Below, piece by piece: positions 1 through 920 of a DNA stretch of 7,446 nucleotides. Made by a program: the position numbers and the translations under genes. How positions within the stretch are numbered: the first letter of the stretch is position 1; the number at the start of each line of letters is the position of its first letter. The stretch is from Oscillospiraceae bacterium (GTDB lineage Bacteria > Bacillota_A > Clostridia > Oscillospirales > Oscillospiraceae), in assembly GCA_017550765.1 (NCBI GenBank), contig JAFZOC010000130.1:1-7446 (forward strand). The letters run 5' to 3'. A model generated the notes under the pieces. That model was not told the DNA's origin, made no database searches, and saw nothing but the letters and a program-made list of their open reading frames with translations.

Positions 1-234
1 AACAGCACAGCGGCTGACCTGTTGGGGGGCTGGACCTACGGGCACTATATGACGATGCTGGTGGCCGTGTGGTACATCTTCACGGAACTGGGCTCGATCG
101 TGGAGAACGCCGGGGAGCTGGGCGCACCGGTCCCCCCGTGGCTGCGCAAGGGCATCGCGGCGCTGAAGCAGAAGGCCGACGCCGTGGATCCGATCCAAGA
201 AAAGCCGCCCGACGAGAGCGGTGAAGATAAGTGA
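1..234 (+). CDS. Phage holin, C-terminal part (5' end outside window)
   Basis: Frame 1 is open from the first base, so the gene begins upstream of the window; 77 codons are visible before the TGA stop. The visible part starts near the end of a membrane segment (YMTMLVAVWYIFTEL) and continues with the stretch ELGSIVENAGELGAPVPPWL. That is the typical C-terminal signature of the toxin-secretion/phage-lysis holin family (TcdE-like, Phage_holin_4). It ends in a charged, probably cytoplasmic tail (EKPPDESGEDK). Holins form membrane lesions that release or activate the endolysin at the end of the lytic cycle. The gene is followed at once by a strong terminator and then by the apparent prophage boundary, so it is the last gene of the phage on this side. 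An internal TTG at 22 lies in the middle of the domain and is not the start. The family assignment rests on recognised sequence pattern, not on a search. Confidence 0.85.
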   Translation, partial: NSTAADLLGGWTYGHYMTMLVAVWYIFTELGSIVENAGELGAPVPPWLRKGIAALKQKADAVDPIQEKPPDESGEDK

Positions 235-243
235 TACATAAAG

Positions 244-282
244 AAACCGCCTCGTGAGCTTGTCGCTCACGGGGCGGTTTTT
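244..282 (+). terminator. Intrinsic terminator after holin, probably bidirectional
   Basis: A 16-base arm AAACCGCCTCGTGAGC (244-259) pairs with GCTCACGGGGCGGTTT (265-280) across a five-base loop TTGTC; the only non-Watson-Crick position is one G-T wobble. On the plus strand the stem runs into TTTTT (278-282). On the minus strand the same hairpin is followed by TTTCTTTAT, so it could also stop transcripts arriving from the cotJ side. It begins 9 bases after the holin stop codon. Confidence 0.9.
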
Positions 283-285
283 CTG

Positions 286-314
286 TTGATTATTGAAGAT
301 CGATACCGTACAAT
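286..314 (+). promoter_or_regulatory. Predicted sigma-A promoter at prophage edge
   Basis: TTGATT (286-291) and TACAAT (309-314) are separated by exactly 17 bases, matching the vegetative consensus at 4/6 and 5/6 positions. It lies just after the holin terminator in the AT-rich strip and points rightward across the phage/host junction, antisense to cotJC and the cotJA-cotJB gene. In an excised circular phage it would instead read across the attachment site into whatever gene sits at the opposite phage end. AT-rich DNA gives chance matches, so this is only a prediction. Confidence 0.4.
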
Positions 315-369
315 AAAAGTGAAAACTAGATCAAGAAGCAATATGACGCCTTGAGACTTTATATCGGTT

Positions 370-474
370 TTAGCAAATAGGCCCGCCGACCTGGCTGATG
401 ATGATCTTTGCCAGCTTCGGATCGGGCTTAGCGATCTTGATGGGGTATTGCAGCTTCTTTTCATAGATGAACAT
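370..474 (-). pseudogene. cotJC: cotJC, 5' fragment interrupted at prophage junction
   Basis: This encodes the N-terminus of CotJC, a manganese-catalase-family spore coat protein of the mother cell. The minus-strand ORF has 34 codons from ATG (472-474) to TAA (370-372). Residues 1-32 begin MFIYEKKLQYPIKIAKPDPK and continue KIIISQVGGP, matching the conserved CotJC start with its YEKKLQYP hallmark. The family is about 190 residues long, and the conserved continuation after GGP (typically DGELxAxLRYLxQRY) is absent; only I, C and a stop follow. The ribosome binding site AGGAGG (minus strand, 482-487) sits 7 bases before the ATG inside the end of the upstream gene, and only 2 bases separate the two genes. 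The expression signals and visible codons look undamaged, which fits a recently or reversibly split gene better than a decayed one. The missing ~155 residues, including the metal-binding ferritin-like core, must lie elsewhere or be lost. Confidence 0.82.
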
Positions 475-476
475 CG

Positions 477-920
477 TCAGCCCTCCTCACGCCTGCTGAG
501 CTCCCATGGCCAGGGCCCATCCAGCCAGGCGTAGCGCGTCATGCCCAGCTGGTCGCTCTGGCGGATGGGGCCGCAGCTGCGCACATAGCGCGCCTTGGCC
601 TCTTTTGCCATGGCGAGCATGGTCTGATAGAGCTCGAATGCTTCCCGGTCTTCCGCGTGGGTGTCCAGATACAAGGCCAGCTCATCCACGACGAAACAGA
701 TCGCCATCAGCTCCGTGCGGGGCGTGATCTCCATGTCCGGGGAAACGAGCCCCATAAAGGGCAGATCCAGTCCGGGGAAGAGCGTGCCGCGGGCAAGGGC
801 GCGGTCGGCGCCATAGCGCGGCTCCGCTTTCTCCTGCATCGGTACATAAGCTCCCGCCAGTGGCGCCGGATCCGGCAAGGTCCCGAGGCGGTATGCGTCC
901 AGTTCGGGGTCCAATCTCAT
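477..920 (-). CDS. cotJA-cotJB: CotJA-CotJB fusion spore coat protein
   Basis: A 147-residue protein joins two proteins that are separate genes in Bacillus. Residues ~20-60 are CotJA-like, with AYVPMQ (24-29) and RGTLFPGLDLPFMGL (44-58). Residues ~65-140 are CotJB-like, with ELALYLDTHAEDREAF (80-95), YVRSCGP (112-118) and the terminal WLDGPWPWE (132-140). There is no stop and no convincing ribosome binding site before the internal Met63 (MEITPRTEL), so a fused product is favoured. CotJ proteins are known to assemble into the spore coat under mother-cell control; their exact role is unclear. The ORF stays open upstream to 1106, but that extension lacks family similarity and contains the likely promoter. 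The start at 918-920 has AGGA (930-933) 9 bases upstream and a second AGGAG (923-927) very close; the latter would also suit a TTG start at 912-914. It is followed directly by cotJC. Confidence 0.85.
   Translation of the reverse strand: MRLDPELDAYRLGTLPDPAPLAGAYVPMQEKAEPRYGADRALARGTLFPGLDLPFMGLVSPDMEITPRTELMAICFVVDELALYLDTHAEDREAFELYQTMLAMAKEAKARYVRSCGPIRQSDQLGMTRYAWLDGPWPWELSRREEG

Follow-up and report, generated by a model that had tools for sequence, protein, structure and literature searches.

Why should a spore-coat gene that has kept its start and its ribosome-binding site end after 32 codons beside phage DNA? The question arises from the window, by which we mean the whole stretch of 7446 nucleotides analysed here (Oscillospiraceae bacterium, contig JAFZOC010000130.1), in which the mother-cell gene cotJC breaks off close to a phage holin gene. 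The answer that we consider probable is that a prophage interrupts cotJC reversibly, in the manner of the skin element in sigK, and that the gene would be rebuilt by excision.

cotJC and its neighbours in the window

The 5' part of cotJC occupies positions 370–474 of the minus strand. It starts with an ATG at 474, and its 32 codons matching CotJC are followed by two foreign codons and a stop (370–372); positions 474–376 translate to MFIYEKKLQYPIKIAKPDPKLAKIIISQVGGPI, after which the next codon is C. Residues 1–32 of the piece align with positions 1–32 of Pfam Mn_catalase (PF05067) at E = 2.7e-08, a match that exceeds the curated cut-off. A ribosome-binding site, AGGAGG, was read from the sequence at 482–487 (minus strand), 7 nt from the ATG. 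The conserved CotJC N-terminus ending at about codon 32 that had been described in the earlier note is confirmed by these results. The likeness to CotJC is lost directly after GGCGGGCC (380–387 in plus-strand numbering, read on the minus strand), the cotJC core motif (GGNGGNCC, codons 30–32) and the insertion point of the site-A elements described below. Residue 29 of the window protein is V, which occurs in none of 92 compared sequences (Y in 85 of them); this is possibly the first sign of decay and was counted against our preferred reading.

Directly upstream of cotJC, and separated from it by 2 bases, lies a fused cotJA–cotJB gene (477–920, minus strand) with an intact open frame, which holds CotJA (Pfam E = 4.4e-14) and CotJB (E = 2.6e-22) in a single frame. 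The fused gene has a match in 301 of the 400 family genomes sampled below, and single-frame matches are common there. The right side of the window carries uvrB, polA, an acetyltransferase gene, tsaD and the start of a radC-like gene. In the closest seven relatives of the window that were fetched, 7–14 kb of sequence surrounding cotJ gave no uvrB hit beside cotJAB.

On the other side of the break the DNA turns AT-rich, as had been claimed: the G+C content, taken in 100-base steps, drops from about 0.6–0.7 to 0.43 across 251–400. A terminator and a holin had also been proposed there, and both were found. The terminator-like hairpin (242–282, plus strand) has an 18-pair stem with a T tail and lies 3' of the C-terminal part (77 residues) of a phage holin (1–234, plus strand), which is cut by the window edge and is the prophage gene closest to the cotJC junction (Phage_holin_4_1, Pfam E = 3.8e-13; PHROG 199, holin, E = 8.4e-05). 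Relatives of this holin were found at 25 loci in viral contigs, the best being 80% identical over 60 residues; an exact 26-base pattern taken from the holin had no match in viral contigs. The element side of the left attachment site (362–379, minus strand) is weakly like the site-A attP arm (consensus GTACTGCAATAGGCTATA). Its position-weight-matrix score was 0.19, compared with a null mean of −19.2 (s.d. 7.3), and was reached at 71 of 14 856 positions and in 2140 of 100 000 shuffles (2.1%); 47 of 51 left-out training arms scored above it and four below. This weak fit was counted against our preferred reading.

Relatives of the window

Genome contigs were scanned with CotJAB, which gave 14 loci. 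The nearest relatives of the window by CotJAB are 57–63% identical. An uninterrupted cotJC in related strains, which the earlier note had suggested looking for, is present at full length in six of the closest seven; the other is G176, where the cotJC match stops near site C, about 150 bases from a contig end.

Among the 14 loci, the same cut as in the window was found in G001 (uncultured Oscillospiraceae, isolate Lapin-002__bin97, locus L005), which we take for a rabbit-gut metagenome-assembled genome (MAG). Its cotJC is cut after the same GGP, unlike that of the sister rabbit-gut genomes (L002, L003, L004 and L006), which is intact. The two halves lie on the minus strand, 43 kb apart (C5:82129–82224 and C5:38293–38748), with portal and internal virion protein genes between them and a large serine recombinase of 492 residues 30 bp from the second half. 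Both junctions have the core GGTGGCCCT in common, and joining at this core gives a CotJC of 198 residues. G001 additionally encodes a full-length PF05067 protein, which is a point against the preferred reading. In G002 (L009, a roe-deer MAG) the cut in cotJC is near residue 135; the two halves are on separate contigs, and the recombinase beside the second half differs from that of G001.

The junction itself is seen in the window, which shows neither the second half nor a recombinase, a point against the preferred reading; in relatives both halves, the recombinase and the attachment arms are seen as well. Relatives strongly support the earlier proposal that cotJC is an attachment gene: the gene is interrupted at the same codon, the attL and attR arms match, there is a large serine recombinase, and the second half is intact and lies on the same strand as the first.

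Occurrence of split cotJC

Breaks were located, in CotJC numbering, at about residues 32 (A), 52 (D), 63 (B), 135 (C) and 177 (E). Site E was recognized in fetched loci as early ends of 3' pieces; tails belonging to it were found 6–9 kb further on, on the same strand, at three of the eight loci searched (G057, G311 and G380), one of them abutting a recombinase.

In a sample of 400 genomes from the GTDB family of G001, PF05067 was matched in 321 (E no higher than 0.1). The re-search covered 115 genomes in which the best match was weak, but not G032 and G166 (best E 0.06–0.1). In 82 of the 115, cotJC is present as at least two pieces, abutting at a site but located apart in the genome, and six of these genomes have it in three pieces. 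A single piece was found in 21, beginning or ending near a site in 20 of these, some at contig edges (the exception is G237); seven were unclear, and five (G008, G060, G267, G276 and G369), whose weak matches were taken not to represent cotJC, were omitted from the tabulated results. With G001, the family total is 83 of 400. In one respect the split counts are lower bounds: where a strong full-length match was accompanied by further matches, only G001 and four other genomes were re-searched. The junctions in the 82 genomes fall at site A in 25, B in 44, C in 18 and D in one. Site A is also where G001 and the window are cut, and the break in the window is not at a random point, because it coincides with this recurrent site.

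A class-wide sample of 391 genomes contained 268 with a PF05067 match, of which 51 were re-searched; weak-match genomes such as G557, G731 and G732 were left out. Here cotJC was split in 30 of the 51, in a single piece in nine and unclear in nine, among them G668 and G468, whose pieces in adjacent frames are probable frameshifts. In one genome (G562) the gene is in four pieces. The tabulated results exclude G649, G718 and G723; they also exclude weak rows, a surplus 3' row of G768 and additional weak pieces in G467 and G772.

At all 50 family junctions with the pieces on one contig and strand, the 5' piece lies upstream. Gaps on one contig measure 2.4–43 kb in the family set and up to 157 kb in the class set, and splits occur inside contigs of 2.19, 2.28, 3.14, 3.67 and 4.07 Mb. 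One contig of G147 (C1) holds three cotJC pieces, of which the last lies beyond the first and runs in the opposite direction; its site C, a same-contig junction with pieces on opposite strands, is a further point against the preferred reading, and either an inversion or a second event is a possible explanation. In G439 the halves are 157 kb apart on a 3.14 Mb contig (C1:2541492–2698788, L200–L207), with a recombinase adjoining the second half and no tRNA genes between the halves; the interval may be either a very large element or trapped chromosome. cotJC is a multi-site insertion hot spot, which goes beyond what the first reading of the window had foreseen.

Recombinases and attachment sites

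The fetched loci that include a break point contain 74 recombinase ORFs of at least 250 residues, and 67 of these lie within 400 bp of the break; the fetching of loci around breaks favours this count. Pfam Resolvase and Recombinase domains were present in all seven recombinases scanned. A tree was built from the 62 of the 67 ORFs with at least 400 residues, the site label of G028 (L042) having been set to B rather than A beforehand; some of its deep joins are on long branches. Site A forms a clade of 21 with two outliers, site B clades of 24 and six, and site C a clade of eight, while site D is represented by a single sequence. The site label changes four times on the tree, compared with a mean of 26.0 in shuffles, and recombinase clade largely follows insertion site. 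The site-C recombinase of G002 (L027:9112–10668) carries DUF4368, and its relatives here occupy one site; in the excerpted text of PMC10083194, DUF4368 is tied to multi-targeting recombinases.

Among 32 site-A 5' junctions in relatives, 27 have the GGNGGNCC anchor at the break, and site-A elements tend to carry inverted arms flanking the core. Of 52 junction cases in relatives, 51 could be joined in frame and one yielded no join; since the join was picked by best score, the frame is partly selected. The core shared by attL and attR has at least 5 bp in 39 of the 51 joins; in the other 12 it has 2–4 bp, which says little. These 12, like the case that yielded no join, weigh against the preferred reading. 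The recombinases of G043 and G159 are 97% identical and the cotJC genes 78%; some recombinases have spread between species, and part of the splits may be young, which counts against the preferred reading.

Related recombinases were found at six loci in viral contigs, five of which match most of the query, and at two of these five (L089 and L091) a cotJC 3' piece adjoins the recombinase. In L091 (IMG/VR 3300028048_003184) a site-A type recombinase is followed by a match confined to about residues 22–65 of cotJC, suggesting that the gene is broken again at site B. As a candidate free phage with a site-A attP, bajarodcaudo virus 3 was rejected: its integrase, the closest listed, is 41% identical and has no cotJC-like core alongside, and the arm model found no convincing attP in a 9.4 kb stretch of this virus.

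No candidate directionality factor was recognized among the ORFs of the small elements examined; the 3.0 kb element of G170, with two genes, has little room for one. Upstream of 63 recombinases, promoters of the sigE type (0 of 63; controls 8 of 5000) and of the sigK type (1 of 63; controls 20 of 5000) were not enriched. Both negative results weigh against the preferred reading.

Selection and SpoIVA

Four sister pairs share the same site and have elements of near-equal size (G170/G264, G185/G310, G057/G202 and G093/G218). In these ω is 0.000–0.029 in each cotJC half at a cotJC Ks of 0.41–1.24, the recombinase Ks being 0.73–1.01. Eight other pairs gave a cotJC ω of 0.000–0.281. Among 67 split and 22 intact sequences, compared in pairs that are not independent, the median ω was 0.157 (split) versus 0.121 (intact) for residues 1–30, 0.195 versus 0.206 for residues 66–130 and 0.068 versus 0.079 for residues 138–175. 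Both halves of split cotJC are under constraint similar to that of intact genes, sister species included.

SpoIVA was found in all 40 split genomes tested, in two of them in two pieces (G341 and G170). The pieces in G341 (C20:236830–237279 and 489491–489769; L186 and L187) are 252 kb apart, and the second begins some 70 bases past the end of a large serine recombinase; the 220 kb of the interval scanned for tRNA genes (241501–461500) contained a cluster of 11 and one more. In G170 the pieces are on C7 and C129.

Content of the elements

The elements in G001 and G204 are prophages. In G204 the holin adjoins the cotJC 3' part and the recombinase the 5' part, the mirror image of the layout expected for the window. 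The scanned ORFs of 3–6 kb elements are non-phage. The elements of G170, G264 and G102 carry a recombinase and a pyrimidine nucleoside phosphorylase gene (assigned by position in G264), which is the sole PYNP_C match in each genome. Other elements likewise gave non-phage ORFs where scanned: alcohol dehydrogenase with LysR, MatE, type III restriction–modification and DNA repair. The 31.5 kb interval of G012 carries a gene for a dnaE-type polymerase and one for a PFL-like glycyl-radical enzyme; the former is the only dnaE-type gene found in that genome, the one other PF07733 gene found being polC-like, and was counted in favour of the preferred reading. A misassembly of this MAG is possible.

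Interpretation

Elements with serine recombinases have repeatedly inserted into one coat gene, with both halves preserved. For the window, the probable course of events would be as follows. A large serine recombinase would have inserted a temperate prophage at site A (codon 32) of cotJC; the window would contain the left attachment junction, and the 3' part of the gene and the recombinase would lie beyond its left edge. In the sporulating mother cell the recombinase and a directionality factor would recombine attL with attR, the element would leave as a circle and cotJC would be rebuilt in frame, while the forespore would retain the element. We infer the unseen half in the window's genome, the excision and its timing; purifying selection on both halves and the analogy with known systems suggest that rebuilding takes place during sporulation.

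The main rival, which we regard as unlikely, is plain lysogeny: phages and integrases would use conserved cotJC motifs as attB, and the gene would be switched off and never rebuilt in development. Loss of the coat protein would be cheap, and the halves would be intact because the insertions are young. The near-identity of the G043 and G159 recombinases despite diverged cotJC genes fits this explanation, as do the intact sister genomes beside the cut L005 and the full-length gene in most of the nearest relatives fetched, and it explains those cases that are recent and borne by phages; for the window it may be all that is needed. It poorly explains the selection on both halves in sister pairs that have themselves diverged in cotJC and recombinase, the small elements in which no phage gene was recognized, the frequency of splits and the genes in three or four pieces. 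It is very doubtful that the window cotJC is a dead remnant or part of a chimaeric contig. The window is just 7.4 kb long and has the unusual V29, but the break falls exactly at recurrent site A, the 32 codons, the start and the ribosome-binding site are kept, and in other genomes splits lie within megabase-sized contigs. Most doubtful of all is the idea that the halves are made separately and then assemble, which would explain selection on the 3' half without excision. A start codon does lie near the junction in some 3' halves (G102 and G264); in G001, however, the first start is some 20 residues inside the half, and the pieces of only about 20 residues at site E would be unlikely to act alone.

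Beyond reversible interruption in the window, a wider reading is put forward tentatively, at somewhat less than even confidence: cotJC would routinely be in pieces in gut Clostridia, and some of the intervals would by now be permanent chromosome. No fewer than five recombinase lineages would hold the gene split, at five sites, in roughly a fifth of the species sampled from one family, sometimes with two or three elements in one cotJC at once. As intervals carry the only detected copy of a host gene (dnaE in G012; pyrimidine nucleoside phosphorylase in G170, G264 and G102), a full coat protein would on this wider reading require DNA elimination in the doomed mother cell.

Relation to known systems

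The skin element has one insertion site in sigK. In heterocyst-forming cyanobacteria, the nif and hup elements include several in one gene and use partly other recombinases. These cyanobacterial elements differ from those in cotJC in phylum and in genes. The sigK skin elements of Bacillus subtilis and Clostridioides difficile are phage-like and have a serine recombinase (PMC5025042, PMC6957869, PMC10747680); as in cotJC, a phage-like element lies in a mother-cell sporulation gene, and sigK is rebuilt in the mother cell. Like the prophage in cotJC, SPβ interrupts a spore-envelope gene (spsM); it is active and is excised in sporulation (PMC4191935). The gin element in gerE of Bacillus cereus is non-phage, has serine recombinases and a 9 bp core, and the gene is rebuilt in sporulation (PMC5595907); gin measures 28.6 kb and has three recombinases, whereas cotJC elements may measure only about 3 kb and hold a single recombinase and a single cargo gene. 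In all three systems the gene differs from cotJC, where excision is predicted, and cotJC unlike sigK has several sites. Genes given as interrupted or rearranged are sigK, spsM, spoVFB, spoVR, gerE, kamA and yabG (PMC6957869, PMC10747680, PMC5595907), with vfbin (spoVFB), spoVR, kamA and yabG coming from one or other of the first two; cotJC is not named in the excerpts of PMC6957869 and PMC10747680. In Anabaena, excision restores nitrogen-fixation genes in a terminal cell type (PMC6957869).

A CotJC-like gene is placed downstream of attR of the C. difficile phage phi027 in excerpts of two papers, and the excerpted main text of a survey of large serine recombinases mentions neither catalase nor spore coat. 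No report of a split cotJC was found in literature titles and the opening lines of abstracts, subscription papers and preprints lying outside the search.

Programmed gene rebuilding in sporulation is known for a handful of genes (excerpts of PMC6957869, PMC10747680 and PMC5595907). The gene studied here, a single coat gene, has several fixed break points, which are used among 83 of the 400 species sampled from one gut family. Annotators may call these split cotJC genes broken when they are not. The loci also supply many new serine recombinases with known target sites, and they amount to dozens of natural replicates in which to consider such elements as parasites, switches or captured chromosome.
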